Assembly (NCBI GenBank): GCA_017479645.1
Contig: JAFVBZ010000124.1
Coordinates: 1 to 44,952, forward strand
DNA from: Ruminiclostridium sp.
GTDB taxonomy: Bacteria; Bacillota; Clostridia; Oscillospirales; Ruminococcaceae
DNA: 44,952 nt
Direction of reading: 5' to 3'
This document shows positions 6,760 through 44,695 of this stretch, in pieces. Below the pieces are notes generated by a model that was not told the DNA's origin, did no database searches, and was given only the letters and a program-made list of their open reading frames with translations. Each line of letters opens with the position of its first letter. The first letter of the stretch is position 1. Made by a program: the position numbers and the translations under genes.

Positions 6760-6770
6760 AGGCTCACCCC

Positions 6771-7366: not shown

Positions 7367-7402
7367 GCGAAATGCCGTGAAACGACCTTTTTCGGACGCG
7401 AA

Positions 7403-8770: not shown

Positions 8771-8771
8771 T

Positions 8772-18754: not shown

Positions 18755-18769
18755 GAAGGTGCCTGTCAG

Positions 18770-31031: not shown

Positions 31032-31071
31032 TGGTTGGCGCCACCCAAAACAAATGAAAGGACGTGTCTAT

Positions 31072-31758
31072 ATGTTATCAGACATTCTTAAAGCAAAACG
31101 GCAGATGAGATCATCCGCCAATCCATTCGTTCCCAAAACATGGGTCGTATCAATGGACGTTGGGTATTCGAGCATAGCGGCTGTCTCGCCGAACAAGCTG
31201 TTCTCGATACCAATGAGTGTACGGAAATCGGAGATCACGGATATCAACGATATCCTGCCCGACAAAGAGGTCATCCGGTATAGATCTCCCGACGGAACGA
31301 TCTATGATGTCGGCGGTAGTTGGTCGGCAGAACGGGAAGAACGTGAGAAGTACATATCGGGCTGTGGGTATTGGGAGCAGGTCGATATGCTGCGGATACT
31401 CACCGAGACTGCGCTGGGAGTTTCGTTGTTCAACAACTTCGCGCGGTGTTACAACGATGAAACGATACGGGCTGTTTGCTGTCTTCCGCCGGAATACGAA
31501 GAGAGCAGCAACTTTACTATGCTGAAAACTATGCTTGAAGGTTATCACAAATTCAGCCTGCTGCCAGCGGGATCGAGCAATTGGCTGAAATTCGACTTTG
31601 CTGTAAAGTCCGCAGTCGTAATGCCGAAGAGCTTTGCAAATTCGTATTTCGACCTGTACTGCGATAAAACGACACATTCCGACATCATCAACGGCAACCC
31701 ACCGATGTTTCGCAGCAGTATTGGGCTTTATCTTCACTATTTCAGTCGTTATTCTTAA
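31072..31758 (+). pseudogene. ParM/StbA-like actin, C-terminally truncated
   Basis: The frame has 228 residues from the ATG preceded by AAAGGA; an ATG at 31054 is also possible. M-D-V-G-Y-S-S near residue 29 is the phosphate-1 motif of ParM-type actins. The following V-S-P-N-K-L-F-S-I-P-M-S-V, D-G-T-I-Y-D-V-G-G and A-V-C-C-L-P-P-E-Y match the first subdomain of plasmid actins. The second subdomain (phosphate-2 and adenosine motifs) is absent: after P-P-M-F the sequence is unlike an actin and ends. Plasmid actins are 310-380 residues, so this one should not polymerise. No ParR-like gene follows. Confidence 0.55.
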
Positions 31759-31856
31759 TATGACGAGGGCGCGCCTTATCCGGTGCTCGCCGCTATCATA
31801 ATATAGATGTAACGAAAGTGACTTTTCACAAAGTCCGGAAAAGGGAGGTGAAACAA

Positions 31857-32027
31857 ATGCTTGAGAAGTACCCCGAGTTAATATCTATAACTCAGCTCTG
31901 TGAGATACTCGGTATCGGCAGAGTAAAGGCTTATCAGCTCCTAAAAGCTAACATTATAAAGTGTAAGCGGATAGGAAAAAAGTACATAATTCCCAAGAAG
32001 TCTGTAATAGAATTTTTGGACATGTAG
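31857..32027 (+). CDS. Excisionase-like small helix-turn-helix protein
   Basis: The protein is 56 residues. The start after GGGAGGTGAAACAA was chosen over the longer frame from 31818. I-S-I-T-Q-L-C-E-I-L-G-I-G-R-V-K-A-Y-Q-L-L-K is a winged HTH (HTH_17, excisionase/MerR-like), and K-R-I-G-K-K-Y-I-I-P-K-K-S-V-I-E-F-L is the wing and last helix. Proteins of this kind direct excision by the neighbouring integrase. A large hairpin separates it from the integrase gene. A TATYATRATA motif lies about 55 bp upstream. Confidence 0.8.
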   Translation: MLEKYPELISITQLCEILGIGRVKAYQLLKANIIKCKRIGKKYIIPKKSVIEFLDM

Positions 32028-32034
32028 TACTATT

Positions 32035-32089
32035 GAACTCCGGCCGCCGTAATGTTATAATAATGTTATGGCGGCCATTTACGGAGTTC
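32035..32089 (+). promoter_or_regulatory. Large hairpin between excisionase and integrase genes
   Basis: GAACTCC-GGCCGCC (32035-32048) pairs with GGCGGCC (32070-32076) and GGAGTTC (32083-32089), with a 6-nt bulge. The loop holds TATAAT. It ends 20 bp before the integrase start, next to the AAAGGAG ribosome site, so it could limit integrase expression by termination or by blocking translation. No T-run follows. Confidence 0.6.
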
Positions 32090-32108
32090 AGAAAGGAGAA
32101 ATGGCAAA

Positions 32109-33266
32109 ATGACCGCTTTTATAAAGAGTAAAAAGGGCAATTTATATGTTGTACTGCGCTACAATCTTAACGGCGAGTGGAAACAGAAATGGGTCTCGAC
32201 CGGTCTGAAAGACAAAGGGAACAGAAATCAGCTCAAACAGCGCCTTGACGACTATATCAGGGAGTATGCTTACCTGGAATCCGGGGTAGAGCGTGATGAC
32301 GCTTATTTTATCCCGTTCCTGAGAAAGTGGTGTGACAGGCACAAGCCCGAAGTCCAGCCCAATTCCTACGAATCCATGGTAACTAACATCAACGCCCACA
32401 TAGCGCCGTATTTCGAGAAGCGCAACTATCGGCTCGATGATGTGACCCCGCTTATGATCTCGGATTTCTACGGGTATCTTACTACCGAAGGCAACCACAG
32501 GACCGGCGGTGGACTGGGTACGGCTTCCGTCAAGAAGATATCATCCATTCTTAAGCAATGCTTCAACGCCGCACTTGTGCTCGGGATAATCAAATCCAAC
32601 CCCGCCTCGGCGGTAAAAGTCCCTAAGATCAAGAACCCGAAGGCTGTAAAGTATGTTTATATGAACAAAACCGAGGCAAACAAGGTCATCAAGGCCTTTG
32701 AAGGGCATCAGCTCAAGCCCCTTGTATTCATGACATTGTTCTACGGGCTGCGGCGTTCCGAGGTAATAGGGCTGAAGTGGGAAAACGTTGACTTCGAGAA
32801 CAGCACCTTCGAGATAAAAAGCACTATCGTAAGGCATCGGACGCTTATTGAGAAGGATACAACAAAGACCGATGACAGCGCCGCGGTCTATGAGATGCTC
32901 CCGCAGGTGAGTCAGATCCTTCTGAACCTGAAAGCAGAGCAGAACGAAAATCGCGAGCTGTTCGGAAGCGCTTATCAGGAAAACGGATATGTCTTTGTCT
33001 GGGCGGACGGGAAGTTCTTCAAACCCGACTATGTGTCCAACGAGTTCAAAAAGGTGATCACAAACGCGGGATTGCCGCCAATGAGATTTCACGATCTGCG
33101 TCATTCCACAGCTTCAATTTTATTTGATATTGGCTGGGATATTGAAAAGATCAAGTGCTGGTTACGCCATGCCGATATTGACACGACGAGCAACATTTAT
33201 TTGCACATAAGCAAGGAACGCAAGAAGATCATGGCAGAAGAGCTCAAAGATCTGTATGAATTTTAG
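32109..33266 (+). CDS. int: Tyrosine site-specific integrase of the island
   Basis: The protein is 385 residues. The N-terminal AP2-like arm-binding part (residues 1-55: L-Y-V-V-L-R-Y, W-V-S-T-G-L) is followed by a SAM-like core-binding domain (60-170). The catalytic domain has G-L-R-R-S-E near 212, H-D-L-R-H-S near 327, L-R-H-A-D-I-D-T-T and the nucleophile Tyr in N-I-Y-L-H near 362. It resembles Tn916/phage-type integrases of Firmicutes and is complete. AAAGGAG precedes the ATG. It lies 123 bp from the att repeat in tRNA-Leu and most likely integrated this island. Confidence 0.93.
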   Translation: MTAFIKSKKGNLYVVLRYNLNGEWKQKWVSTGLKDKGNRNQLKQRLDDYIREYAYLESGVERDDAYFIPFLRKWCDRHKPEVQPNSYESMVTNINAHIAPYFEKRNYRLDDVTPLMISDFYGYLTTEGNHRTGGGLGTASVKKISSILKQCFNAALVLGIIKSNPASAVKVPKIKNPKAVKYVYMNKTEANKVIKAFEGHQLKPLVFMTLFYGLRRSEVIGLKWENVDFENSTFEIKSTIVRHRTLIEKDTTKTDDSAAVYEMLPQVSQILLNLKAEQNENRELFGSAYQENGYVFVWADGKFFKPDYVSNEFKKVITNAGLPPMRFHDLRHSTASILFDIGWDIEKIKCWLRHADIDTTSNIYLHISKERKKIMAEELKDLYEF

Positions 33267-33293
33267 CCCGCTTTTGAGGAGGCAGAACCCTTC

Positions 33294-33315
33294 TTGGTGG
33301 AACTTTGGTGGAACT
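33294..33315 (+). repeat. Tandem 11-bp candidate integrase arm sites
   Basis: TTGGTGGAACT is repeated without a gap at 33294-33304 and 33305-33315, and recurs at 736-746 at the other end of the island. Confidence 0.45.
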
Positions 33316-33388
33316 CGGACATTTTCCGCTGTCAGACAAAATAACAAAGCCGTCTGTGGTATTGCCCACAAACGGCTCTGTTATCAGT

Positions 33389-33450
33389 TATTCACTGGTG
33401 CGGAGAATGAGACTTGAACTCACACGAGCTAACGCCCACTACCCCCTCAA
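33389..33450. repeat. Right attachment site inside tRNA-Leu
   Basis: Exact 62-bp match to 518-579; covers the 3' half of the tRNA gene and seven bases beyond its CCA end. Confidence 0.88.
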
Positions 33451-33481
33451 AGTAGCGTGTCTGCCATTCCACCACCTCCGC
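33396..33481 (-). tRNA. tRNA-Leu (anticodon GAG)
   Basis: This is 86 nt on the minus strand including an encoded CCA (33396-33398). The acceptor stem GCGGAGG pairs with the 3' strand with one G-U. Anticodon stem CTACT/GGTAG with loop TTGAGGG gives GAG, reading CUC/CUU Leu codons. A long variable arm is present, as required for Leu. A consensus promoter precedes it. Its 3' half is the attachment site of the island. Confidence 0.95.
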
Positions 33482-33600: not shown

Positions 33601-33740
33601 AATACTAAATCAGCATCTATCCGTTGACATAACCAAGTAATTTCGTCACGATTCAGATAGGCGCGCAGAGCGCGCTCCATAATTGTGAATTGTGCATTGT
33701 GAATTGTGAATTGTGCATTGTGCATTGTGCATTTTGAATT
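33601..33740 (+). repeat. Dispersed repeat, left copy (inverted relative to 43055-43169)
   Basis: About 90 bp (33601-33690, including GTAATTTCGTCACGAT and the palindrome around GAGCGCGCTC) match the reverse complement of 43080-43169 at about 90% by eye. It continues into a tandem heptamer tail (TTGTGAA/TTGTGCA, about eight units, 33683-33740). A third partial copy starts at 44899. Confidence 0.85.
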
Positions 33741-33814
33741 GGATAGAAATATAGTATAAAATCTCAAAGATGTCATTGTTTGTCACCCAAAAGTGTGATA
33801 TCATCTAAAATGCA

Positions 33815-33846
33815 GAGAGCTGTGAACGGGAATGTTCGCGGCTCTC
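33815..33846 (+). terminator. Terminator-like hairpin before the phage module
   Basis: A 13-bp stem with G-U pairs (33815-33827 with 33834-33846), followed by TTCATTT. It lies just upstream of the scaffold gene and may be the leftover end of a deleted upstream phage gene. Confidence 0.5.
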
Positions 33847-33879
33847 TTCATTTATCACACCTGAGAGGAGGAAACAAAA

Positions 33880-34362
33880 ATGCAGGAAAACGAGATCATA
33901 GGCGAGCAGGAAAACACTGCTCCCGATGAGAACGGCGGGGCAGAGCAGGACGAGAAGCTTTACTCCCAGTCGGAACTCGATCAGCGCGTGAATGCGGAAT
34001 GCGAGCAGCTCCGAAAGAAGCTTGCCGATACGGAAAAGCTTGCCGCTATGTCCGAGAAGGAGCGCGCAGATCACAGGCGCACTGTCCGCGAAAAGGAACT
34101 CGCCGAGAGGGAAGCGGCTGTGGCAAAGCGTGAGCTTATCGCAGACGCTGCCGAGAGACTTGCGGAGGCGGGGCTCCCGAAACAGCTCGCCGCGTGCCTT
34201 AACTACTCCGGCAGGGAGGAGTGCGAACAGAGCCTTGAGGCTGTCGCACAGGCGTTCGAGTCCGCGGTGACAGGTGCCGTCAACAGACGCTTCAAGGGCA
34301 ATGTCCCCAAATTCGCAGGCTCCGGTCCGAAGGACGCATTCCTTGACGGGCTCGGAATGTAA
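33880..34362 (+). CDS. Phage scaffold-like protein (DUF4355 type)
   Basis: The protein is 160 residues, starting after GAGAGGAGGAAAC. An acidic N-terminus, Y-S-Q-S-E-L-D-Q-R-V-N, a long charged coiled coil (residues 38-90) and a C-terminal G-L-P-K-Q-L-A segment ending F-K-G-N-V-P-K give the DUF4355 scaffold pattern. Such proteins guide capsid assembly and always precede the major capsid gene, as here. The terminase and portal genes that should come before it are absent. Confidence 0.8.
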   Translation: MQENEIIGEQENTAPDENGGAEQDEKLYSQSELDQRVNAECEQLRKKLADTEKLAAMSEKERADHRRTVREKELAEREAAVAKRELIADAAERLAEAGLPKQLAACLNYSGREECEQSLEAVAQAFESAVTGAVNRRFKGNVPKFAGSGPKDAFLDGLGM

Positions 34363-34376
34363 ACAAATCGCATCAG

Positions 34377-34407
34377 CGCTTTCCGGCTGTTCCGGAAGGC
34401 GTTTTTT
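34377..34407 (+). terminator. Terminator between scaffold and capsid genes
   Basis: A 10-bp stem (CGCTTTCCGG, 34377-34386, with CCGGAAGGCG, 34392-34401) followed by TTTTTT. It could set the scaffold-to-capsid ratio or imply a separate capsid promoter. Confidence 0.85.
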
Positions 34408-34443
34408 GCACCGGAAAATCATTATTTCAAAGGAGAAATTACT

Positions 34444-35304
34444 ATGGCAGTCAATTTAGCGGAAAAGTATTCGTCTCAGGTAGATGAGGTCATCAGAAGA
34501 GGTCTTCTCTCTACCGCAGGTACAAACAACGATGTTGAGTTCGGCAATGCACAGACCGTAAAGGTCTATTCCCTCGATACAGCGCCCCTCAACGACTACG
34601 ATCCCACAGCAGGCATGAGCAGATACGGCGAGCCTGTTGAGCTTGAAGATACCGTTCAGACTATGCAGATGTCCCAGCAGAAGTCCTTCACCTTCACTAT
34701 CGACAAGACCTACGAGTCCGATTCCCCCGACGGCGTGAGAAATGCAGGAAAGGCTCTCCAGCGCCAGATCGAGCAGGTGATAATCCCCGCGATAGATACC
34801 TACCGCTTCTCCGTTCTTGCGACGAAGGCAGGCACAAAGATCGAGAAGGTTCTTTCTTCCGGGAACGCCTACTCCACTTTCGTTGAGGCAAACACAGCAA
34901 TCACAGATGAGGAATTCCCCGTTGAGGGACGCGTGGCTTTCTGCTCCAACGCCTTTATCGAGCTCCTCAAGCAGGACGGCGCTTTCACAAAGGCTACCGA
35001 GCTTGCGCAGGACAGAGTGATCTACAAGGGCATGGTAGGCGACTGCGACGGCGTGGCGATAATCGCTGTTCCGAAGCGCAGACTTCCCGAAGATACCGCC
35101 TTCATCATCACTCACCCCATGTGCGCTCCCGCCCCCGTAAAGCTCCAGGACTATAAGATCCACAAGGATCCTCCCGGCATCGCAGGTACTCTCGTGGAAG
35201 GTCTGCTGTACCACGATATCTTCGTTTTCGACAAGAAAAAGAAGGCTGTGGCAGTTTGCTTCGACAGAGAACCTACCGAGGACGATACGACCGAAAACAG
35301 CTGA
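34444..35304 (+). CDS. Major capsid protein (HK97 fold)
   Basis: The protein is 286 residues. It starts A-V-N-L-A-E-K-Y-S-S-Q-V-D-E and has E-D-T-V-Q-T-M-Q-M-S-Q-Q-K-S-F-T-F-T-I-D-K as the E-loop/P-domain strand region, a long spine helix with R-Q-I-E-Q-V-I-I-P-A-I-D-T-Y, then the A-domain V-A-F-C-S-N-A-F-I-E-L-L and H-D-I-F-V-F-D-K-K-K-K-A-V-A near the end. This is the short HK97-fold capsid type of Siphoviridae-like Clostridial phages, with no N-terminal delta domain. It looks intact. GGAGAAATTACT precedes the start. Confidence 0.85.
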   Translation: MAVNLAEKYSSQVDEVIRRGLLSTAGTNNDVEFGNAQTVKVYSLDTAPLNDYDPTAGMSRYGEPVELEDTVQTMQMSQQKSFTFTIDKTYESDSPDGVRNAGKALQRQIEQVIIPAIDTYRFSVLATKAGTKIEKVLSSGNAYSTFVEANTAITDEEFPVEGRVAFCSNAFIELLKQDGAFTKATELAQDRVIYKGMVGDCDGVAIIAVPKRRLPEDTAFIITHPMCAPAPVKLQDYKIHKDPPGIAGTLVEGLLYHDIFVFDKKKKAVAVCFDREPTEDDTTENS

Positions 35305-35327
35305 GTAAATGACGGAGGCAGAGCTAT

Positions 35328-35639
35328 ATGAAAAGAATAGATTCGCTGCGTGTTCTGCTCCCGCCCGACGATAAAAGCTCGGACATAAAGCTCGGAATGC
35401 TGCTGGACAACGCGGAGAACATGCTTCTCGACTATATCGGCAGGGATTCCCTCCCGGAACGCCTTGCGGATATGCAGATACACCTCGCTCTTGAGATGTA
35501 CAACAGGCTCGGGAATGAGGGAGAGACAAAACGCACGGAGAATGATATCTCCGTGTCGTTTTCCGATCTCATCACCGACGATATGAAGCTCCGGCTCAGA
35601 AACTATCCGAGAAAGGTGGGTGCCGTTAAATGCAGCTGA
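35328..35639 (+). CDS. Head-tail connector (gp6-like adaptor)
   Basis: The protein is 103 residues, all helical: L-G-M-L-L-D-N-A-E-N-M-L-L-D-Y-I-G-R, M-Q-I-H-L-A-L-E-M-Y-N-R-L-G-N-E-G, then F-S-D-L-I-T-D-D and R-N-Y-P-R-K-V-G. This matches the gp6/DUF-type adaptor that plugs the capsid vertex below a portal. Its end overlaps the next gene by 10 nt. It normally requires a portal protein, which is not encoded here. Confidence 0.75.
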   Translation: MKRIDSLRVLLPPDDKSSDIKLGMLLDNAENMLLDYIGRDSLPERLADMQIHLALEMYNRLGNEGETKRTENDISVSFSDLITDDMKLRLRNYPRKVGAVKCS

Positions 35640-35944
35640 CACAGAACAGACTGAAGCGCGTCAACATCTTCTCCGATGCTGTCACCGACAGCGGTTACGT
35701 CGGAAAGAAGCGCGCTCCGGCACTTCTCGGGTTCGTTTACGCAGAAGTCTTTCCCTCCGCGGAGAAGCTTTCCGACGAGCGCAGAGGCACAAAGGTCTCC
35801 TCCGGCGCTACGCTGATACTGCGCAGGGAAGCAGGCGTGAAATGCGGCGATCTCGCGGGCATTTACGGCGAATCGCCGGACAGCAGGATAACGCAGGTGG
35901 AGATATACCCCGGACATCTCACAGCAAGGACGGAATGCCTATGA
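35630..35944 (+). CDS. Head closure (stopper) protein
   Basis: The protein is 104 residues. Position directly after the adaptor, beta-rich sequence (V-Y-A-E-V-F-P-S, G-A-T-L-I-L-R-R) and length fit the head-closure protein of HK97-like siphophages. It overlaps both neighbours, with ATGA at its 3' end. No signature motif, so the call leans on gene order. Confidence 0.6.
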   Translation: MQLTQNRLKRVNIFSDAVTDSGYVGKKRAPALLGFVYAEVFPSAEKLSDERRGTKVSSGATLILRREAGVKCGDLAGIYGESPDSRITQVEIYPGHLTARTECL

Positions 35945-36243
35945 AGGACTTTACAGCAGAAATAAACACGGCTGTGCTCACCCTCGGAAATCTCGCTTTT
36001 GACCACGCAAAAGAGCACTGCCCGGTACGCACCGGCAGGCTGAAGCGGAGCATTGCGATACGCACCGAACACAACCGCGCGAAAAATGAGGATACCGTCG
36101 TTATCGGAACTTTCGTGCCTTATGCGCCCTGCGTCGAGTTCGGCGGCATCGGAAGAAGACCGAACCCGTTCCTCGGGAATGCCGCGGAATACGCGAAAAG
36201 CTGTGTGCAGACGGTATTTGAGCTTGCATTCGGAGGTGTGTGA
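35941..36243 (+). CDS. HK97 gp10-like neck/tail protein
   Basis: The protein is 100 residues. A-F-D-H-A-K-E-H-C-P-V-R-T-G-R-L-K-R-S-I is the gp10-family hallmark (C-P-V-D/R-T-G-x-L), followed by Y-A-P-C-V-E-F-G and R-P-N-P-F-L. The ATG overlaps the previous stop by 4 nt. It belongs to the minor tail/neck proteins placed between closure protein and tail terminator. Confidence 0.82.
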   Translation: MKDFTAEINTAVLTLGNLAFDHAKEHCPVRTGRLKRSIAIRTEHNRAKNEDTVVIGTFVPYAPCVEFGGIGRRPNPFLGNAAEYAKSCVQTVFELAFGGV

Positions 36244-36599
36244 TGAAAGACTATTTACCTGATGTCGCCGGGCTTCTCGGAGATATCGCAGATGTGGAGC
36301 TTTCTTTTGCTGACCATGCTGTCCCGCTGCCGTGCATCGTCCTCTCGGAGCTCGGCAACAGCTCCGCCGTTGTTCTCGGCGGGAAAGACAGATACAGCAT
36401 AGTTTCAGTGCAGGCAGATGTCTATGCGGAAAGCGCAGAGGAAGTGCGTTCCCTTGCATTGCAGGTGAACAGCGTCCTCACGGACAAGGGCATTAAGCGC
36501 AGCTCTTCGCAGTTCCTTACAGATGAGGATAAGCCGAGAATGTGTATGCGTTACCGCTTCGGCATTGACGAGGTCACGGGAAGGACAGTGTCGCTGTAG
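36243..36599 (+). CDS. Tail terminator/completion protein
   Basis: The protein is 118 residues after GGAGGTGTGTG; a GTG one codon earlier is possible. The alpha/beta pattern (V-E-L-S-F-A-D, C-I-V-L-S-E-L-G-N, S-V-Q-A-D-V-Y-A-E-S-A-E-E-V-R-S-L-A-L-Q-V) and the gene order between gp10 and the tail tube match tail-terminator proteins. The start overlaps the gp10-like stop. Confidence 0.65.
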   Translation: MKDYLPDVAGLLGDIADVELSFADHAVPLPCIVLSELGNSSAVVLGGKDRYSIVSVQADVYAESAEEVRSLALQVNSVLTDKGIKRSSSQFLTDEDKPRMCMRYRFGIDEVTGRTVSL

Positions 36600-37020
36600 T
36601 GCAGCGGCGCCTTCGCGCTTTTGTCTTTCTGTGGTCACTTTTTATGCGCACATCGTGTGCGCTTTTGGTGACCACTGCCAATGCATCCTGCATTGTGCGG
36701 ACGGCACCGGCTTACGCAGCCGGCTCGCGCAAGGGCAGAGCCCTTGACCCTAATGCCGTAACACGGAGATCTGCAAGACTGCGAAAAGAGCCACAATAGC
36801 ATTAATAAACGATTTGGGTGCAGCGTCACGCTGCCGCGGTCCAGCCTCAATGCAGGAGGCATTGACTTCGGCACCCAAAGCACGCACGATGCGTGCATAA
36901 CAGTGCCGAAAAGCGCAGGCTGGCGCTGTCCGCGCAGGACAAAGCGCGTCAGCGCAGTATCGCAGAACTGCCGCGCGTCAGCGCTGCTGCACCTGTCTTT
37001 TCGCTTGAAGGAGGCGGAAA
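36600..37020. other. 420-bp non-coding stretch packed with GC-rich palindromes
   Basis: No supported gene. It holds nested hairpins GTGGTCAC/GTGACCAC (36631-36638, 36668-36675) with GCGCAC/GTGCGC inside, and TTTGGGTGC/GCACCCAAA (36813-36821, 36871-36879) enclosing two smaller hairpins, plus GCACGC/GCGTGC (about 36880-36896). This splits the head genes from the tail tube gene in what is normally a gap-free operon, suggesting an inserted palindromic element or a structured RNA. Confidence 0.55.
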
Positions 37021-37455
37021 ATGGAAATTCTTTCTTCGGGTACTGCCTACTACCTCAACGGGCAGAACCTTTACGGACTAAAGTCCACGCCCGAACTTGG
37101 CGGCACGCGCGAAAAACGTGAGGTCACGAACCTCCTCGATACCGCGCACCGCTATATCGCGGGTCTTTACAAGTACGACGATCTTACCTTCGACTTCTAC
37201 TACAACAGCGCAGAGGAAAACCCCAACGTCACTCCCGCACAGACAGCTGCGGCATTCGCCGCGGCAAGAGCCGTGGAGCTTTCCGGGGCTTCCGTCACGC
37301 AGAAAGTGCAGTTCCCCGACGGAACGTACTTCACATGGTCGGGTCAGGTCGCAACCAAGATCAAGCGTATGGAGGCGGACGGGGTAATGGAATTCAGCAT
37401 TATCTCCATTCCCAACACCGCCCTCGTTTACAGCTCGGACACCAGTTCGTCATAA
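37021..37455 (+). CDS. Major tail tube protein
   Basis: The protein is 144 residues after GAAGGAGGCGG. It contains F-D-F-Y-Y-N-S-A-E-E-N-P-N, V-T-Q-K-V-Q-F-P-D-G-T-Y-F-T-W-S-G-Q-V and E-F-S-I-I-S-I-P-N-T, which fits the beta-sandwich tail tube proteins of Clostridial siphophages. Located after the tail terminator and before the frameshifted chaperones, as expected. A strong terminator follows. Confidence 0.75.
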   Translation: MEILSSGTAYYLNGQNLYGLKSTPELGGTREKREVTNLLDTAHRYIAGLYKYDDLTFDFYYNSAEENPNVTPAQTAAAFAAARAVELSGASVTQKVQFPDGTYFTWSGQVATKIKRMEADGVMEFSIISIPNTALVYSSDTSSS

Positions 37456-37466
37456 ACAGCTATTTC

Positions 37467-37500
37467 CCGCCTTTCGTATCCACGGAAGGCGGGTTTTTTC
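37467..37500 (+). terminator. Terminator after the tail tube gene
   Basis: A 12-bp stem (CCCGCCTTTCGT with ACGGAAGGCGGG) followed by TTTTTT; it would reduce transcription into the tail chaperone and later genes, matching the high need for tube protein. Confidence 0.85.
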
Positions 37501-37519
37501 AGAAAAAGGGGATTTTACT

Positions 37520-37861
37520 ATGAATGAGAACAAAGCCGCACTGCCTTATACGGAGCTTTCCGCGGGAGACAGGACTTACCTGCTCCGCCTTACCGCGCTT
37601 TCCGCCGCAAGGCTCGAAGAACGTCTCGGTATGTCCGTTTACAAGGCGGCGGAGCGCATGGACGAGGTGACGGTCATCGCCGAGTTCGTCTATGCCCTTA
37701 TCGAGGGACTCAAGCCAGAATTCAGCCGCCAGGACGCATACGCCGTCATCGACGACTTCATCAGCGCGGGAGGTACGCTTGCCGGACTGAACAAACACAT
37801 CGCGGAGGCGCTGAAGATCTCCGGTTTTTTCGGGCAGGCTTCGGGAGCGCAGGAGAGCTGA
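37520..37861 (+). CDS. Tail assembly chaperone (gpG-like)
   Basis: The protein is 113 residues, mostly helical (A-A-R-L-E-E-R-L-G, V-T-V-I-A-E-F-V-Y-A-L-I-E-G-L, Y-A-V-I-D-D-F-I-S-A-G-G), the usual first chaperone between tail tube and tape measure. Near its end the mRNA carries T-TTT-TTC in frame (37825-37831), a canonical -1 slippery heptamer. A -1 slip there enters the open frame that continues to 38199, giving the longer GT-type product. Confidence 0.8.
   Translation: MNENKAALPYTELSAGDRTYLLRLTALSAARLEERLGMSVYKAAERMDEVTVIAEFVYALIEGLKPEFSRQDAYAVIDDFISAGGTLAGLNKHIAEALKISGFFGQASGAQES
37825..37831 (+). promoter_or_regulatory. -1 ribosomal frameshift site (TTTTTTC)
   Basis: The heptamer is phased GG-T TTT TTC G in the chaperone frame, as X-XXY-YYZ requires. 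The -1 frame is open from here to 38199. Confidence 0.75.
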
Positions 37862-38199
37862 TAAAGGCGCTGAGGCGGGAAGCGCTCGTTTACTCGCGGG
37901 ATATATCCGGAATGTGGCAGCTCACCGCAGCCGAACTCGATGAGATCATCGAAGCCGGAAGAACCACAAAAGCCGGTGAGATACGGGAAAACGAACTGCT
38001 CGCATTCAATATCGGCGCACTGGTGCTTGCCGCTTTCAACGCTCCCCGGCGCTTCCCGGAAACACCCGATGCCGCATTCGGAAGAAAGGCTCCTATGCCC
38101 CCGGACGGCGGCAAGGAAGATTTCATGAAGATCGCCGTTCAGCTGAACAAACGGCTTTCGGAAAGATCAGGAGAAACTTATGACAGTAGAGGAACTTAA
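37831..38199 (+). CDS. Frameshift extension of the tail chaperone (gpGT-like T domain)
   Basis: The frame lacks its own start with a ribosome site; the first ATG is at 37912, within M-W-Q-L-T-A-A-E-L. Upstream it is open back through the slippery site and reads R-A-G-F-G-S-A-G-E-L-I-K-A-L-R-R. It should therefore be made only as a fusion of about 225 residues with the first chaperone. The T domain binds the tape measure during tail assembly. The end overlaps the tape-measure start by 20 nt. Confidence 0.7.
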   Translation, partial: RAGFGSAGELIKALRREALVYSRDISGMWQLTAAELDEIIEAGRTTKAGEIRENELLAFNIGALVLAAFNAPRRFPETPDAAFGRKAPMPPDGGKEDFMKIAVQLNKRLSERSGETYDSRGT

Positions 38200-38704
38200 T
38201 ATCAAAATTTCCGCAGATGCCGAAAATTTCCGGCGCGGTCTCGCAGATGCACAGACCGCGGTCACGGAATTCAGGAATAATGCGGTACAGGCTGCCGGGG
38301 AAGTGACCAGAGCTTTCGACGGGCTGATAAATGTCGGAGTTGCGTCCGACTTCTCCGGAGATAAGCAGGAAACTGCGGCTGTGCAGACCGCCGCCGCAGA
38401 AACAGCAGCGGCTCCGTCTTTTTCCATGCCGTTCTCGGACTGGAGAAGCGGCGGTACTGCGGGCTTCACAAACGGCGGTATTTCCATAAGCCCGCTTATT
38501 TCCGGCATTTCGAGCCGTACCGCAAATGTGCTCCGGCTCGAAAACAGCGAGACTGTGATCGGCGCAGTCGGTCAGCAGGACAGCGATGACGGCAGACCCG
38601 TCAATATCACCACAACCGTCGAACTTGACGGCGACAAGGTGGGCGAGTCGGTAAACCGCTTCAATCTGCGCCGGAACAAGATCACAAACGGCATTTACGG
38701 ATAA
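38180..38704 (+). CDS. Miniature tape-measure protein
   Basis: The protein is 174 residues. The first 40 (L-N-I-K-I-S-A-D-A-E-N-F-R-R-G-L-A-D-A-Q) are the standard tape-measure N-terminus, and the last 40 (V-N-I-T-T-T-V-E-L-D-G-D-K-V-G-E-S-V) are the standard tape-measure C-terminus. The middle, normally 600-1500 residues of helix and a membrane stretch, is reduced to about 90 residues of Ala/Gly/Ser-rich linker. Tail length scales with this protein, so any tail would be extremely short. The frame is open and the position is right, so it looks like an in-frame deletion rather than random decay. Confidence 0.7.
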   Translation: MTVEELNIKISADAENFRRGLADAQTAVTEFRNNAVQAAGEVTRAFDGLINVGVASDFSGDKQETAAVQTAAAETAAAPSFSMPFSDWRSGGTAGFTNGGISISPLISGISSRTANVLRLENSETVIGAVGQQDSDDGRPVNITTTVELDGDKVGESVNRFNLRRNKITNGIYG

Positions 38705-38718
38705 AGGAGAGAATTACA

Positions 38719-39084
38719 ATGTACTTTATAAAGATAAACGATGCTGTACTTCCCACTCCTTACTATTACTCGGTCACTTCGCGCGACATCGAAAGCTCCG
38801 ACAGCGGAAGATACGACGAGACCGGCGTTGTCCACAGAAACAGGGTGCGTCACAGCGTAAAGACCTGCGATGTGAAGTGGAGACTTCCCGGAAACTCGCT
38901 CAGCCCGCTAAATGCGGCGCTCGGAGATACGCTCCTGGAAGTGAATATGCTCGATCCCGCGACAGGAAGCTATATCGACTGCGAGATGTACGCCGAGAGC
39001 ATAAGATCGGACTTCTACCAGCATCAGAACAGAAGCGAGCCGTCAAGCTGGTGGGAGATAAGCTGCCGGCTCGTGGAGTATTAA
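38719..39084 (+). CDS. Distal tail-like protein of the phage module
   Basis: The protein is 121 residues after AAAGGAGAG. It is beta-rich (Y-Y-Y-S-V-T-S-R-D-I-E, R-H-S-V-K-T-C-D-V-K-W-R, S-W-W-E-I-S-C-R-L-V-E-Y) and lies between tape measure and tail-tip adhesin, where the distal tail protein belongs. I recall similar small proteins annotated as DUF6711. It is about half the size of a typical Dit protein, so the functional name is tentative. Confidence 0.5.
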   Translation: MYFIKINDAVLPTPYYYSVTSRDIESSDSGRYDETGVVHRNRVRHSVKTCDVKWRLPGNSLSPLNAALGDTLLEVNMLDPATGSYIDCEMYAESIRSDFYQHQNRSEPSSWWEISCRLVEY

Positions 39085-39096
39085 GGAGAGTGGGAT

Positions 39097-41271
39097 ATGT
39101 ATAATGTCGGACAGGATTATATAGACGCGCTCGCCGGAAAGACAAGGACTGACAGGATAGAAGGGACCCTTACCCTCGCAAACGGCAGTTCGATCGCAAT
39201 CACAGACGAAAACCTTGTGAGGGATTCTCTCTCCCTTTCAAAGGAGCTCTGCGGTGAGCAGTACCGCGTCGGCACATTCAATACCGCCTGCCTTAAACTT
39301 TCGTTCTTTATTGACGATGCGCTCGGCATAGATCTCACGGACGCTTCGGTGACAATGAGCTATTTTCTGACTCCCGAAGATGCCGCGGAACAACAGGTGC
39401 CGCTCGGTACGTTCTTCGTTGACCCGATACTCTCGATAAGACGGAAGAACATACTCAACATCATCGCTTTTGACGCGGGCGTGAAGTTTGACCGCGAGGT
39501 CTCCGACAACTTCCGTACCATAACCGGCACCCCCGCACAGATCATCTCGGCGGCATGCACATACTGCGGGGTGACTACCGCAGTCCTGCCGGCAAGCCTT
39601 GACGAGATGCCCAACAGCGATATCATCGTAAGCGCCGCGGATAAGCAAATACAGACGTACAGAGACGCGGTCATGTGGTGCGCGGCACTCGTCTGCGGAT
39701 ATGCGGTCATCGGCAGGGATTCCGCCCTTTATCTGATACCCGCGATATACAGCGTTTCCGGCGGTGTCAGACCTTCCATAATCACAAGCAGGACGGTGAC
39801 TGCCGCGGAAAGACAGAGCGTCTATGTCACCGATACGAGAGCTTACATCAAATACCTCACCGCTTATGCCGGCGACGATGTGGTCAACTATGTCTCTTCC
39901 TTCTCGGCACAGGACGAACAGGCTTCACCCGCTTCTTACGTTCTCGAAAAGAACCCGCTTCTTGCCGATAAGGAAGAAGCTGAATGTGAGACCGCGAACG
40001 AGGAGTGGCTCGGTTACATCGACAACTTCATGCAGCGCGGAGTGCAGGCAAGGATCATGGGTGACCCTGCGCTCGATATGGGAGACGCGCTTATGTTCAC
40101 AGGCGGTGACGTTGACCAGCGCACAGGCATCATCGGCGTGGTCACGTCCTATGAGTGGCGGTACAGGAATTACCACGATATCCGCTGTACCGCAGCGGAA
40201 TGCTGCGGTTCGATCGCTCCCGGCTCACTGTCCGGCGGTGCGGCTTCGGTAAGACCCCAGTCCGCAAAGCGCATAGATGCAATCAAGACGCCGGAACCGT
40301 CTGCCGGAGGAGTGGGAGAAGATCTCGGAAACCGCAACGAAAACTTCAACACATACACAGGTCATCAGTGGGCAAACCGCATAATCGACGAGCAGTTTGA
40401 CTGCTCGGACTGCTGTCACCTCGAAGGAGAGCTGAACACGCTCCGGAACTGCGACTATACGTCGGTGGGCGGCGCGAACAATGCCGGTACGAACGACAGC
40501 TACAGCATCGTTCACGGCAATTACAATACGTTTTCCGGCGGCAGGCATATCATCGCAGGCTCTCACAACAATGTCAGCGGCGACGGCAATACCGTGGCAG
40601 GCTATGGCAGCACCATTACCGGAGACAGCAATGTCGTTGCGGGAAGCAATCACACTGTCGGCTCGGTCGGGGCGCTGGTATGCGGCTGCGGCGTTGACGC
40701 AACAAGAGCCGCCGCTTCGTATGTGTTCTATGCCGGAAATTACAGCATCTCCGTGGCTATGACGTCCAACGGCTATGTATTCGCGACTGCCTACAACACA
40801 AACGGCGCAGACTACGCCGAATACTTTGAATGGGCGGACGGGAACCCGGAGAATGAGGACAGGCGCGGTATGCTCGTATCGCTTATCGGTGACAAGATAC
40901 GGCCCGCGGACGGTGACGGTATCGACGGTGTTATATCGGTCAGACCGTCGGTTTGCGGCAATGACTGTCAGCTCAACTGGAGAGGCAAGTATAAGACTGA
41001 TGTTTTCGGAGAGACGGAGCAGGACGCGGACGGCAGGCTGATACTTGCGGAAGAATATGACAAAGACCGCGAGTATATCCCCCGCTCCCGGCGCCCGGAA
41101 TGGTCGCCTGTCGGGCTTGTGGGAAGGCTCGTCATCACCGACGACGGAAGCTGTACGGCAGGCGGTCATGTCACCGCTAGGAACGGCATCGGTCACAAGG
41201 CGGAATGCACTACCCGCGTGAAGGTGCTTAAAAGACTTGACGATACGCACGTTGAAGTGCTTGTCAGATAG
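39097..41271 (+). CDS. Tail-tip adhesin with beta-roll repeats and Peptidase_G2 domain
   Basis: The protein is 724 residues. Residues 1-~390 are a tail-associated baseplate domain (Y-I-D-A-L-A-G-K-T, F-F-V-D-P-I-L-S-I-R-R). Residues ~425-530 are degenerate 14-16-residue repeats of the type I-x-A-G-S-x-N-x-V-x-G, as in trimeric YadA-like heads. The C-terminal ~155 residues start G-A-D-Y-A-E-Y-F-E-W and contain R-R-P-E-W-x-x-V-G-L, the Peptidase_G2 intramolecular chaperone that cuts itself off after trimer folding. It should bind a cell surface. AAGGAGAG precedes the start. Confidence 0.78.
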   Translation: MYNVGQDYIDALAGKTRTDRIEGTLTLANGSSIAITDENLVRDSLSLSKELCGEQYRVGTFNTACLKLSFFIDDALGIDLTDASVTMSYFLTPEDAAEQQVPLGTFFVDPILSIRRKNILNIIAFDAGVKFDREVSDNFRTITGTPAQIISAACTYCGVTTAVLPASLDEMPNSDIIVSAADKQIQTYRDAVMWCAALVCGYAVIGRDSALYLIPAIYSVSGGVRPSIITSRTVTAAERQSVYVTDTRAYIKYLTAYAGDDVVNYVSSFSAQDEQASPASYVLEKNPLLADKEEAECETANEEWLGYIDNFMQRGVQARIMGDPALDMGDALMFTGGDVDQRTGIIGVVTSYEWRYRNYHDIRCTAAECCGSIAPGSLSGGAASVRPQSAKRIDAIKTPEPSAGGVGEDLGNRNENFNTYTGHQWANRIIDEQFDCSDCCHLEGELNTLRNCDYTSVGGANNAGTNDSYSIVHGNYNTFSGGRHIIAGSHNNVSGDGNTVAGYGSTITGDSNVVAGSNHTVGSVGALVCGCGVDATRAAASYVFYAGNYSISVAMTSNGYVFATAYNTNGADYAEYFEWADGNPENEDRRGMLVSLIGDKIRPADGDGIDGVISVRPSVCGNDCQLNWRGKYKTDVFGETEQDADGRLILAEEYDKDREYIPRSRRPEWSPVGLVGRLVITDDGSCTAGGHVTARNGIGHKAECTTRVKVLKRLDDTHVEVLVR

Positions 41272-41280
41272 GAGGTCAGA

Positions 41281-41619
41281 ATGTATATTACAGACGGGTG
41301 CAATATTATCGTACCGAGGGGTGACCGCGCAGATATCCCCTTCGTTTTCACGGACGAGGAAAGCGGTGACCCTTATGTATTCGACGAGGGAACGCAGATA
41401 AGGCTCGATGTTTTCCCGGTAAGGGGCGCGGACAGCGTGATATCAGAGACGCTGGAGGCTCCGGGAGCATCTTCCGGCGGTACCCTCATTTTCAGCCTCT
41501 CTTCGGAGGAAACGGATATCCCGCTCGGCGAGTATCTCTATACCCTTACCGCCGAAAACGGGACTGCGGTGGATACGCTTGCCGGATCCCCGCAGTCCGC
41601 GCGTTTCGAAATAAGATAG
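41281..41619 (+). CDS. Baseplate-associated protein, beta-sandwich
   Basis: The protein is 112 residues. I-V-P-R-G-D-R-A-D-I-P-F-V-F, G-T-Q-I-R-L-D-V-F-P and P-L-G-E-Y-L-Y-T-L-T-A-E-N-G form an Ig-like sandwich, the pattern of N-terminal domains of BppU-type baseplate proteins. It follows the adhesin by 9 bp with AGGAGG. No receptor-binding domain is attached, so it may be a small accessory baseplate subunit. Confidence 0.55.
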   Translation: MYITDGCNIIVPRGDRADIPFVFTDEESGDPYVFDEGTQIRLDVFPVRGADSVISETLEAPGASSGGTLIFSLSSEETDIPLGEYLYTLTAENGTAVDTLAGSPQSARFEIR

Positions 41620-41629
41620 GAGGCGCGTT

Positions 41630-41866
41630 ATGGACAGGATCAATGTGAAGATAGGCGCTTCTCCGGCTGTCGGCGTAAAGACCGGCATAATGCCGGAATA
41701 TACCGGGGAATGCACGGTCGTGCCGAAGATCGGACATCAGACCGTGCTGAATACCGCAAAGCATTACCTGAGCGGAAATATCACGGTGCGCGAGATACCG
41801 GTGACGGTGCAGGAGAATGAGGCGGGCGGTCTTACCCTTACGGTGGGAGGTGCGGACGGTGAGTGA
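41630..41866 (+). CDS. Small phage-module protein, unknown
   Basis: The protein is 78 residues, starting after TAGGAGGCGCG. It is basic-to-neutral and beta-rich, with a Y-L-S-G-N-I-T-V-R-E-I-P segment that resembles small tail-fibre-linked proteins of Clostridial prophages, which often carry this G-N-I-T-V motif. Its stop overlaps the next gene. No function can be given. Confidence 0.5.
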   Translation: MDRINVKIGASPAVGVKTGIMPEYTGECTVVPKIGHQTVLNTAKHYLSGNITVREIPVTVQENEAGGLTLTVGGADGE

Positions 41867-42089
41867 GCTTTTTGTCAACAAGGTAGTCATCGGAAGCGCG
41901 GTAATGGCAGACCTTACCGGAGATACGGTAACGCCGGAGACTCTGCTTGAGGGCGTGACTGCCCACGACTGTTCCGGCGCGCCGATAACCGGTGAGGCAA
42001 AACAGAAGGAGTCGGTTTTCTGCAGCGGCTTATGCTATGTGATAATGCCGGCTCTCAAAGATGCAAAAGCAGGAGGTACAGGAGCATAA
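41859..42089 (+). CDS. Small phage-module protein with G-V-T-A-H-D motif
   Basis: The protein is 76 residues from a GTG at 41859, chosen because GGGAGG lies 11-16 nt upstream and the upstream codons overlap the previous gene. T-P-E-T-L-L-E-G-V-T-A-H-D-C-S-G-A-P-I-T-G is a pattern frequently seen in tail-fibre-like proteins of Firmicutes phages. The stop overlaps the next ATG (TAATG). Function unknown. Confidence 0.55.
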   Translation: MSELFVNKVVIGSAVMADLTGDTVTPETLLEGVTAHDCSGAPITGEAKQKESVFCSGLCYVIMPALKDAKAGGTGA

Positions 42090-42757
42090 TGGCACATACA
42101 CTCAATGAACAGGTAGTTGTGATACCGTCGGGCGCGGCAGCTGACAATATCGAGCGGTATCTCAGCACGATCGTAAGTCTCACGGGCTGGACAAGGGACG
42201 GATATACCGTTTACAGCGATCCCGGCAAGACTATGGGCATAAAATTCGATTATACCGGATCCAACACCTGCTACACCGAGGTTTTCTGCAGCAATAATGT
42301 GAGAATGAACTATATTTCGTCATTCGGCATTGCTGCCGGAACCACGATAAGAGTACACAAGAGCACGGACGAGACTTTAACTTATCTCGATATCGGCACA
42401 AACAGCCAGTATGAGCTGCGAATGATATCTACGAGGAACGAGAACGGTGACTCGCTGCTGATAGATGCCGACACAGGTACGGTGATCAAGGTGGGAACCA
42501 CCACAAGAACAGGCTATGTGGATATCTACATGCCGAGATATACCACGGGAAAGGAGTACTGCATAACGAAGTTCCCCGATCCCGTGAACGGAAAGCTTAT
42601 ACCGAGCCTTTATGCTGCCTTCGGTACGGCGGCGCCTTCTTACAACAATCAGCTGGTGAGCTTCGACGGGGAAATATTCCGCCTTGCTTTTATGTCAACC
42701 GATATGCACGGTCCTGTGCTCGCTTTCCCGGTCTCCGATGAGACGGAGGACGAGTGA
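42089..42757 (+). CDS. Phage-module protein, unknown (possible tail fibre)
   Basis: The protein is 222 residues. It is beta-rich throughout (G-I-K-F-D-Y-T-G-S-N-T, G-Y-V-D-I-Y-M-P-R-Y, F-R-L-A-F-M-S-T-D) with few charged runs, as expected for a fibre or receptor-binding subunit. AGGAGGTACAGGAG precedes the ATG. It overlaps both neighbours by a few bases. I do not recognise a family. Confidence 0.5.
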   Translation: MAHTLNEQVVVIPSGAAADNIERYLSTIVSLTGWTRDGYTVYSDPGKTMGIKFDYTGSNTCYTEVFCSNNVRMNYISSFGIAAGTTIRVHKSTDETLTYLDIGTNSQYELRMISTRNENGDSLLIDADTGTVIKVGTTTRTGYVDIYMPRYTTGKEYCITKFPDPVNGKLIPSLYAAFGTAAPSYNNQLVSFDGEIFRLAFMSTDMHGPVLAFPVSDETEDE

Positions 42758-43041
42758 TGGACGAGAACGATGTAAAGCTGCGGGAACGGGTGACGGCAGT
42801 GGAGAACGGGCTTCTTAATCTCGGCGGACGGGTGGACAGGATAGACGATATCGTTTCGTCTATCCGTGAAGTCGTTGTGGAGCTGAAGCAGATGCGCTCC
42901 GATGTGAACCGCATCGACAGAAAAGTCACCGATATCGAGAACCGCCCCGCAAAGCGCTGGGAATCCGTTGTTGCAGCCGTTGTCGGCGCTGCCGCGGGCG
43001 GGCTCGGCACGGCTTTTATTACACGGATCATAGGAGGCTGA
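42757..43041 (+). CDS. XhlA-like membrane-anchored protein
   Basis: The protein is 94 residues. A coiled coil with heptads (R-E-R-V-T-A-V-E-N-G-L-L-N-L, V-V-V-E-L-K-Q-M) is followed by one C-terminal membrane segment (V-A-A-V-V-G-A-A-A-G-G-L-G-T-A-F-I). This is the XhlA/hemolysin form found beside holin and endolysin genes in Bacillus prophages. Here no holin or endolysin follows; the module ends at the inverted repeat. The ATG overlaps the previous stop. Confidence 0.75.
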   Translation: MDENDVKLRERVTAVENGLLNLGGRVDRIDDIVSSIREVVVELKQMRSDVNRIDRKVTDIENRPAKRWESVVAAVVGAAAGGLGTAFITRIIGG

Positions 43042-43054
43042 AACAATACAGCTT

Positions 43055-43169
43055 TACAATGCACAATTCACAATGCACAATGCACAATTGTGGAGCGCGC
43101 TCTGCGAGCATATCTGGATCGTGACGAAATTACAGGGTTTTGTCTGCGGATAGATGCTGATTTAGTATT
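43055..43169 (-). repeat. Dispersed repeat, right copy (inverted)
   Basis: Reverse complement of 33601-33715 at about 90% in the core, with a shorter heptamer tail (TTGTGCA/TTGTGAA, about four units). It lies 13 bp after the last phage-module gene, so the two copies bracket the module. Confidence 0.85.
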
Positions 43170-43309: not shown

Positions 43310-44599
43310 ATGAATATTCTTGTTGTGGGCGGCGGCGGACGCGAACATGCCGTTATCAAAGCCCTTTCCCGTTCGGAAAAGGTAAGTAAGATATACTGCG
43401 CTCCCGGAAACGGCGGTATCTCCCGGCTCGCGGAATGCTTTCCCGTAAAGGCTACCGATATCGACGGAATGGTGGAGCTTGCCGAAAAGCTTAAACCCGA
43501 TTACGTTTTCGTTACCCCCGATGACCCGCTCGTTATGGGTATGGTGGACAGGCTCAATGAAAAGGGATTCAGGACTTTCGGCCCCCGTGCGGACGCGGCT
43601 GTGCTCGAAGGAAGCAAGGTCTTTTCCAAGGGGCTTATGAAGAAGTACGGCATTCCTACCGCCGCTTACGAGACATTCACAGATGCGGAAAAGGCGATAG
43701 CTTACATAAAAGAGCAGGGCAGATACCCCGCTGTCATCAAGTGCGACGGACTTGCGCTCGGCAAGGGCGTTATCATCGCTCAGAATGAGCAGGAAGCCGT
43801 TGACGCGGTTAATTCCATGCTCATCGGCGGTAAGTTCGGCAAGAGCGGCAGCGAGATCGTTATAGAAGAATTTATGACAGGCCCCGAAGTCACTGTTCTT
43901 GCATTCACCGACGGAAAAACCGTAAAGCCTATGGTTTCTTCTATGGATCACAAGCGTGCCTACGACGGCGATAAGGGACTTAACACAGGCGGTATGGGTA
44001 CTATCGCGCCTAACCCGCTCTATACAAAGAAGTACGCCGACGAGTGCATGGAGAAGATCTTCCTGCCCACGATAAAGGCTATGCAGGCAGAGGGAAGACC
44101 TTTCAAGGGCTGCCTTTATTTCGGGCTTATGCTCACTCCCGACGGCGCAAAAGTCGTTGAGTACAACTGCCGTTTCGGTGACCCGGAGGCGCAGGTGGTT
44201 CTCCCGCTCCTTAAGACCGATCTCGCCGATATCATCGAAGCTGTTTATGAGGAGCGCCTTGACAGCCTTGATATCGAATGGGCAGACGAAAGCTGTGCGT
44301 GCGTGGTCATGGCAAGCGGCGGCTATCCCGAGAAGTATCCTACCGGACTGCCGATCAGCGGTTTTGATGCAGACGGTCAGCTCCCCGACGGCAAGGCTTA
44401 TGTTTATCACGCCGGTACAAAGCTTGACGGCGGCACGTTCCTCACCGCAGGCGGCAGAGTGCTCGGCGTGACAGCGACTGCACCTACTCTTAAAGCCGCT
44501 CTCGACAAGGCTTACTCTGCAGTCGGCGAGATAAGCTTCGAGAATGCGCATTTCCGTAAGGATATCGGGCAGCGTGCACTTGCCGGAGAAGATCGCTGA
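43310..44599 (+). CDS. purD: Phosphoribosylamine-glycine ligase
   Basis: The protein is 429 residues, the usual PurD length. It starts M-N-I-L-V-V-G-G-G-G-R-E-H-A, the diagnostic N-terminus; an ORF extension to 43175 has no ribosome site, while AAAGGAC precedes this ATG. ATP-grasp features follow: K-A-D/K-C-D-G-L-A-L-G-K-G-V near 145, M-D-H-K-R-A-Y-D-G-D-K-G-L-N-T-G-G-M-G near 215 and E-Y-N-C-R-F-G-D-P-E-A-Q near 285. It joins glycine to phosphoribosylamine in the second step of purine synthesis. Here it stands alone with its own promoter and terminator. Confidence 0.96.
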   Translation: MNILVVGGGGREHAVIKALSRSEKVSKIYCAPGNGGISRLAECFPVKATDIDGMVELAEKLKPDYVFVTPDDPLVMGMVDRLNEKGFRTFGPRADAAVLEGSKVFSKGLMKKYGIPTAAYETFTDAEKAIAYIKEQGRYPAVIKCDGLALGKGVIIAQNEQEAVDAVNSMLIGGKFGKSGSEIVIEEFMTGPEVTVLAFTDGKTVKPMVSSMDHKRAYDGDKGLNTGGMGTIAPNPLYTKKYADECMEKIFLPTIKAMQAEGRPFKGCLYFGLMLTPDGAKVVEYNCRFGDPEAQVVLPLLKTDLADIIEAVYEERLDSLDIEWADESCACVVMASGGYPEKYPTGLPISGFDADGQLPDGKAYVYHAGTKLDGGTFLTAGGRVLGVTATAPTLKAALDKAYSAVGEISFENAHFRKDIGQRALAGEDR

Positions 44600-44692
44600 C
44601 GCTCGAGAAAGGTCGCGCACGGCGCTCGAGAAGGGTCGCTTGCGCTCGAGAAGGGTCGCTTGCGCTCGAGAAGGGTCGCGCACGGCGCTCGA
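44600..44692. repeat. Tandem ~20-bp repeat after purD
   Basis: CGCTCGAGAAGGGTCGCTTG and a 23-bp variant ending GCGCACGG occur in about four and a half tandem units. Each unit contains CTCGAG. No coding sense in the direction of purD. Confidence 0.85.
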
Positions 44693-44695
44693 GAC

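Follow-up and report, generated by a model that had tools for sequence, protein, structure and literature searches.

Few gene transfer agents (GTAs) have been described outside the Alphaproteobacteria, and a 2026 virome study reports GTA-like packaging of host DNA in gut Ruminococcaceae and Oscillospiraceae, with 4.6-kb fragments in Ruminococcus callidus and a gene set for Faecalibacterium only (PMC12946183). This Faecalibacterium system, FpGTA, was characterized as small particles packaging host DNA by electron microscopy, proteomics and sequencing; its genes form two chromosomal operons, its small terminase (TerS) is described as having no obvious DNA-binding domain, and a holin and an endolysin belong to the set (PMC12946183). 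Here we describe a 9.5-kb head-tail block, the module, at positions 33601-43169 of a 44,952-nucleotide stretch of a Ruminiclostridium sp. genome (the window; assembly GCA_017479645.1, contig JAFVBZ010000124.1). With a probability of about 0.74, we read this block as the operon for the structural proteins of a multi-locus GTA-like system with a short siphovirus-like tail, which is dispersed over the chromosome and bound to its host lineage.

The host carries the family label Ruminococcaceae, as does that of FpGTA, and FpGTA shows that gut members of this family make such particles (PMC12946183). FpGTA is described as podovirus-like and holds TerS, the large terminase (TerL), portal, scaffold and capsid genes in one operon (PMC12946183). 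In the present system, by contrast, TerS, TerL and portal are split from scaffold and capsid, and a mini tape measure goes with a tail of siphovirus-like type.

The GTA of Rhodobacter capsulatus (RcGTA) has a multi-locus genome, the main cluster of which keeps TerL together with the structural genes, and its regulation differs from that of the present system. Its host belongs to another phylum. RcGTA resembles our system in a short tape measure of ~216 residues (PMC7296036), a TerS reported to lack specific DNA binding (PMC7947584) and a tailed-phage-type tail, and the RcGTA virion is among the fold matches of the window's stopper protein; its genes g1 and g2 are reported to be adjacent. RcGTA is a proven GTA and shows that a working system can have both of these traits in tape measure and TerS (PMC7296036, PMC7947584). 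A likeness in regulation is offered by the Caulobacter CcGTA, in which the main cluster and numerous accessory promoters not linked to it answer to a single activator, although these are GafY/IHF promoters with a far-upstream site (PMC11150451). The promoter described below has instead a direct repeat at the place of the -35 element, adjoining an extended -10. PBSX of Bacillus subtilis is a defective phage-like particle with a single locus and a contractile tail, and its protein XkdH is also among the stopper fold matches. Capsid-forming phage-inducible chromosomal islands (cf-PICIs) are compact integrated islands with their own head and packaging genes and no tail genes, whereas the present system has a full tail and is not a single island.

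Recurrence and selection of the head-tail genes

When 72 genomes of the genus were searched with the capsid protein, matches were obtained in 36, and in 22 of these, the window's own genome (G000) included, the identity was at least 75%; in the other 21 the capsid is 75-99% identical. A clade-specific tail-tube profile (A3, built with the sequences of 18 carriers and of one viral contig) selected the same 22 genomes with 264-295 bits, the next best score being 127 bits, and the remaining 50 genomes were taken as non-carriers. Wherever the fetched contigs allow, the gene order of the module is constant. Outside the genus, 396 genomes of the family (126 genera) gave no module-level match; they yielded weak tube matches of 51-89 bits in three genomes, and the only portal past 1e-150 (G081, 568 bits) scored at the level of sister phages. 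A remnant confined to one strain and free of purifying selection, a case that the initial annotation had considered, was rejected because the gene set recurs in 22 genomes with low ratios of nonsynonymous to synonymous substitution (dN/dS).

These ratios were obtained with a Nei-Gojobori script from gene pairs with dS 0.05-1.5, using stop-free frames that cover at least 60% of the reference, a selection that cannot itself show the absence of stops. The medians were 0.084 for the capsid, 0.078 for the tube, 0.108 for TerL and 0.120 for the portal, compared with 0.064 for the host gene purD. They were 0.25 for the scaffold, 0.27 for TerS, 0.31 for the mini tape measure and 0.42 for tail completion, and spanned 0.08-0.51 over the 16 module genes measured (41817-42089 was left out), the highest belonging to 41630-41866. 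Stops inside capsid, tube or portal were found in none of the carriers. The phage-derived structural genes are maintained under purifying selection across species, and the proposal of a maintained module rather than a dying prophage holds, given its recurrence and dN/dS values below 1.

Distances in capsid, tube, TerL and portal correlated with those in purD (Mantel r 0.72-0.85; 0.58 for TerS), and the correlation between capsid and portal was 0.90, though the two are unlinked. Carriers that have the module at tRNA-Leu(GAG) cluster with support as a single group in a quick capsid tree; on the purD tree, where they are mostly unresolved, the same site label takes three changes, of which supported branches force one.

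The tape measure had been described as ~174 residues with both conserved ends. The length of 174 amino acids (aa) stands, and the mini tape measures of 18 carriers measured (of 22; G028, reading 133 aa, was dropped by the coverage rule) have 132-201 aa. The window's protein has only a weak match in PHROGs (E 0.0093), but a profile of the 18 proteins matches two full-length tape measures (827 and 858 aa; E 4e-8 and 1e-8), those of the sister phages L030 and L052, at their N-termini. The C-terminal segment is conserved inside the mini-tape-measure family, but its match to the full-length proteins was not significant. The structural model has terminal helices at low confidence (predicted local distance difference test, pLDDT, 54).

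The separate packaging operon and the shared promoter

A search for the portal family over the genus returned a tight score group in the module genomes, on contigs other than those of the module. A dedicated portal profile, built from 13 of the 20 portals (those of G023, G025, G029, G038, G048, G055 and G060 were left out), reached 745-873 bits in 20 of the 22 carriers, whereas none of the 50 other genomes had such a score and the next one (555 bits) came from a sister prophage; the co-occurrence (Fisher 7e-16) is uncorrected for kinship and includes the 13 portals behind the profile. In each of the 20 genomes showing both, the module is on one contig and the portal on another, and in G002 and G061 they are tens of kb away from contig ends. 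The genes of the system are spread across several chromosomal loci. At six loci listed gene by gene (labels by eye), the TerS-TerL-portal operon sits among ordinary host genes.

Between promoter and TerL a short open reading frame (ORF) was found in 19 of 19 loci examined, with 65-73 aa in the 18 that were aligned with chosen starts. Its similarity to phage small terminases is weak and confined to their C-terminal end (phrog_51, 5.9e-5 in one member and 0.03 in another), and we read it as a short TerS that lacks the DNA-binding part normally present at the N-terminus. The ATPase and nuclease motifs of TerL are present in 15 of 15 aligned sequences.

Sister prophages have homologous TerL and portal (contig C56 of the window's own genome, L030 and L053) and homologous capsid, adaptor and terminator (own contig C218, which is L054, and again L030 and L053). 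They differ in layout, since in L030 and L053 TerL, portal and a gene in the minor-head position continue into scaffold and capsid, and in TerS, which in C56 has 161 aa with the whole Terminase_2 family matched. In G061 a further ORF lies upstream of the scaffold (L034:11165-11917, minus strand); it was considered as a remnant of a minor-head (MuF-like) gene, but no such family matched it. The ORF at this place has HPFCRC near its start, as does the sister-phage ORF at the same place (L055), and going by this short shared motif it is perhaps a fossil of a lost minor head gene.

The window's own genome shows a break where the operon would be expected. Contig C85 (11,364 bp) ends at 5595 and contig C225 begins at 9216 of a relative's 16.5-kb stretch, both being 96% identical to the relative on either side, and the relative's TerL and portal lie at 6353-8945. 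The place of the packaging operon in G000 falls into an assembly gap, with dispersed repeats on both sides. For this reason a loss of TerL and portal in G000 was not accepted, and neither is the gap proof of their presence. In G057 a contig end cuts the operon off after the promoter, the short TerS and part of TerL.

The initial annotation had listed terminase and portal among the missing genes and suggested a particle without packaging genes. Neither gene is in the block, but the operon described here, found in 20 of 22 module genomes, speaks against the second suggestion. Terminase and portal genes lie elsewhere, which taken literally is what the initial annotation had named as a refutation; they are nevertheless conserved and preceded by the same promoter across species, which points away from a broken prophage.

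This promoter element, found before the scaffold gene in the window, also stands upstream of the TerS-TerL-portal operon in relatives. From k-mers common to the upstream regions of both operons we derived the pattern TGTC[A/C]TTG[A/T][A/T]TGTC, 11 nt, extended -10. The site given in Table 1 is its only match in the window at up to two mismatches (0 expected). The core was present in 36 of 38 upstream regions (22/23 scaffold and 14/15 TerL; the TerL loci L105, L106, L110, L111 and L113 were left out, four of which were covered by the TerS survey), with the 'TA' of the -10 at fixed spacing in 35 of these 36. All 22 module genomes contain the pattern (including the sites used to build it), as do 2 of the 50 others, and as a control the reversed pattern was found in 0 of 72. 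The sister-prophage contigs C56 and C218 of the window's genome have no copy.

Thirty extra sites in the module genomes were all inspected, along with two non-module sites and the TerS-TerL site of G057. Fifteen precede DUF6291 genes in 11 genomes, the window's own included (15/15 over the Pfam cut-off), two precede DnaD-like helicase-loader genes (two genomes), one a small gene with a weak match to phrog_1084 and no known function, and one an operon of holin and GH25 endolysin (one genome); the other 11 have no assigned gene and are in mobile-element-like regions or at contig ends. Outside the genus, matches occurred in 4 of 396 genomes. The two that were read are in phage-type regions, one directly after a RinA/ArpU-like regulator (phrog_36) and one before a TerS-TerL gene. 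The motif may be an old phage late promoter that the system has retained.

Several further observations were made on these sites. Two promoter-driven DUF6291 genes each are present in G061 (L202, L203), G060 (L198, L200), G022 (L183, L184) and G057 (L204, L206). By eye, some DUF6291 genes adjoin an htpG-like gene, and the short C-terminal tail of some DUF6291 proteins resembles that of the other subgroup's DnaD-like protein. No paper on DUF6291 was found in the open-licence literature. Promoter copies also occur in mobilisable-looking elements at G000:C39:13143 (L182) and G061:C1:519602 (L201), where MobC-like, integrase and primase/helicase-type ORFs were recognized by eye; such elements could be co-induced with the particle genes.

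Gene content and surroundings of the block

The reading frames of the block are open from 33880 to 43041, and the presence of intact genes from scaffold to adhesin is confirmed by ORFs and by PHROGs and Pfam matches (Table 1). The last gene of the block is XhlA-like, the family match itself being 'hemolysin'. Terminase, portal and endolysin were not found within the block in the ORF list and the PHROGs/Pfam scans, and the locus does not have the layout of an intact temperate prophage, with contiguous terminase, portal, head, tail, lysis and integrase genes.

Table 1. Features of the head-tail block and its edges, in window coordinates.
Feature	Position	Strand	Basis and remarks
Left dispersed-repeat copy	33601..33714	+	probably outside the system
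Shared promoter	33771..33804	+	direct repeat TGTCATTGTTTGTC, 11 nt, then extended -10 TGATATCAT
Capsid assembly scaffold (Gp46/DUF4355 type), 160 aa	33880..34362	+	PF14265 3.7e-16; phrog_172 1.6e-27
Major capsid protein, 286 aa	34444..35304	+	phrog_422 2.4e-53
Head-tail adaptor (gp6/gp15-like)	35328..35639	+	PF05135 1.1e-10; phrog_132 5.1e-21
Stopper / head completion, beta-barrel, 104 aa	35630..35944	+	predicted fold; no sequence family (Pfam, PHROGs)
Tail completion / Neck1	35941..36243	+	phrog_5 5.6e-10 over 35959-36243; start 35935 or 35941
Tail terminator (gp17-like)	36240..36599	+	phrog_78 5.7e-8; PF11367 slightly below cut-off
Major tail tube protein, 144 aa	37021..37455	+	phrog_158 1.2e-10; clade-specific profile A3
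Tail assembly chaperone	37520..37861	+	phrog_183 6.8e-11
Gene in second-tail-chaperone position	37912..38199	+	position; homologues in relatives; phrog_2066 9.1e-5 (function unknown)
Mini tape measure protein, 174 aa	38180..38704	+	conserved N-terminus, variable middle, conserved C-terminus
Distal-tail-position protein, 121 aa	38719..39084	+	phrog_1194 4.9e-17 (function unknown)
Tail-tip / adhesin, 724 aa	39097..41271	+	PF11962 2e-30 (C-terminal autoproteolytic Peptidase_G2); phrog_6616, phrog_4775
Four genes, perhaps appendages	41281-41619, 41630-41866, 41817-42089, 42032-42757	+	PHROG matches weak or none
XhlA-like membrane protein	42754..43041	+	phrog_937 'hemolysin' 2e-9
Right dispersed-repeat copy	43056..43169	-	same dispersed repeat

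As a rule, a whole neck sits on a portal. The stopper was modelled by AlphaFold at pLDDT 79, and its top Foldseek matches in the Protein Data Bank are phage necks (E 4e-4), followed by the RcGTA virion, PBSX XkdH and SPP1 gp16 (E 0.001-0.06). Together with this predicted fold, adaptor, stopper, completion protein and terminator would make up a whole neck. The distal-tail-position protein has the same length in 17 of 17 genomes measured, and homologues of the four appendage-position genes adjoin some related modules. The tail tube gene is set off from the tail terminator gene by a non-coding insert (36600-37020), in which ~142 nt match G000:C160 at 95% identity; the insert may hold another dispersed repeat.

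The block is bracketed, as the initial annotation had stated, by inverted repeats of about 90% identity, here arms of 114 nt that are 90% complementary. The suggested inversion of the whole block found nothing in its support, and the invertible cassette was rejected because the arms are a dispersed genomic repeat with at least 36 further places in G000. Among 24 other loci searched, only the closest relative has it, in one copy beside its module; it is absent from the other 23 (22 with the module and one sister phage, several cut at contig ends). The single-strand folds of the repeat show little or no gain over shuffles (z -1.5 and -0.7).

To the left of the block lies tRNA-Leu(GAG) at 33396-33481, and on its far side a tyrosine integrase (32109-33266, ~0.6 kb from the block) and an excisionase-like gene (31818-32027). 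The earlier statement that an integrase is absent is thus correct for the block itself and misses the one just outside, beyond the tRNA gene. Integrase and excisionase-like gene are probably a separate element at the 3' end of the tRNA. The region 31054-33481 also holds an actin-like N-terminal fragment (weak ALP_N match), and since integrase matches were found near the module in five relatives, tRNA-Leu(GAG) looks like an integration hot spot. Elsewhere in the window we noted repeated units with ATCATAATAG or a near form at 30688-31038 (copies of 30-52 nt at irregular spacings of 80-231 nt), short tandem-like repeats with GCTCGAGAA at 44593-44694, at and just past the end of purD, and at 14886-21949 ORFs that by eye resemble a type I restriction-modification set.

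Interpretation of the split system

Split, conserved head-tail and packaging operons with a common promoter, a shortened tape measure and a putative short small terminase are what the genes themselves display. Because the packaging genes are conserved and share a promoter with the head-tail genes across species, a GTA-like system would explain the data better than an empty container or a broken prophage. Under this reading, an activator would turn on the promoters of both operons together, and small heads would fill with near-random host DNA because the short small terminase could not recognise a pac site. The ~170-residue tape measure would give a very short siphovirus-like tail, some 20-30 nm long at 0.15 nm per residue, holin or XhlA together with endolysin would release the particles, and relatives would receive fragments of chromosomal DNA.

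A number of points weigh against this interpretation. No particle, packaged DNA or transfer has been seen. TerS is identified by where it lies and by weak matches, and its length depends on the chosen start, a longer in-frame start being present in L105; G000 is without an assembled TerS-TerL-portal. The promoter is not exclusive to GTAs, given its matches in mobile-element-like and out-of-genus phage-type regions; genes for DUF6291 or DnaD-like proteins do not usually belong to a GTA; and a search of the fetched loci for RinA/ArpU-like activators gave just those of sister phages. An endolysin lies beside the module in 7 relatives, whereas G000 has only fragments and G002 none, which leaves release in this species unexplained. 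Finally, the module occurs in several chromosomal contexts and has therefore changed its place, and the resolution of the purD tree does not suffice to establish vertical descent, so that the data fit strict vertical descent or some movement alike.

The main rival is a particle that packages DNA and does not transfer it, that is, a PBSX-like killing particle that would package host DNA and hit competitors via tail and adhesin. For most relatives of the main subgroup, identity to the window's adhesin is 46-58%, as against 85-99% for the capsid, which would fit a diversification of targets, and for FpGTA, too, this question is left open (PMC12946183). We nevertheless consider this explanation unlikely, as the PHROGs/Pfam scans found no tail sheath family among the module proteins, and a complete neck, portal and TerL are conserved, parts that a pure killing tail would not need.

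Improbable, in our view, is a satellite-like or split temperate element, in which the late activator of a helper prophage would switch the operons on for the benefit of the helper or of a mobile element. The phage-type surroundings of the two out-of-genus matches read would agree with it, as would the promoter copies in regions of G000 and G061 that look mobile-element-like by eye. Against this, the set is kept in 22 of 22 carriers whereas a sister-phage capsid (64-68% identity) is present in only 5 of them, gene distances track purD, and the window's integrase, the only type searched for, turned up near the modules as a single complete copy and as four sets of fragments.

That G000 simply retains a decaying prophage is very hard to sustain: the lack of an endolysin near its module and the differing promoter-distal genes of the two closest genomes would suit decay, but the same set with the same reductions recurs in 22 species-level genomes at low dN/dS, with capsid, tube and portal free of stops in all carriers. 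The particle first suggested, a capsid-like container or surface-adhesion particle that would stay free of DNA, is equally implausible, since the packaging genes missing from the block itself co-occur with it as an operon under the same promoter.

As to its place among GTAs, we lean slightly towards the view that the GTA-like system represents a lineage not described before in ruminant-gut Ruminococcaceae. Its siphovirus-like particle would have had the packaging motor moved to another chromosomal site, and the parts would form one regulon under a retained phage-type late promoter that also drives DUF6291 or a DnaD-like protein and has been borrowed by mobile elements. A search of the open-licence literature, with subscription papers and bioRxiv outside its scope, found no paper describing this split system.

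With its genes, its promoter motif and a set of known carriers, the case is open to a direct test in rumen viromes or isolates, and the promoter offers a way to the activator and to further members of the regulon. The case likewise illustrates that a prophage with apparently missing genes can be one part of a split system. If the proposed lineage is real, DUF6291 or the DnaD-like protein would perhaps tie particle production to DNA replication, and mobile elements with the shared promoter could ride on GTA induction.

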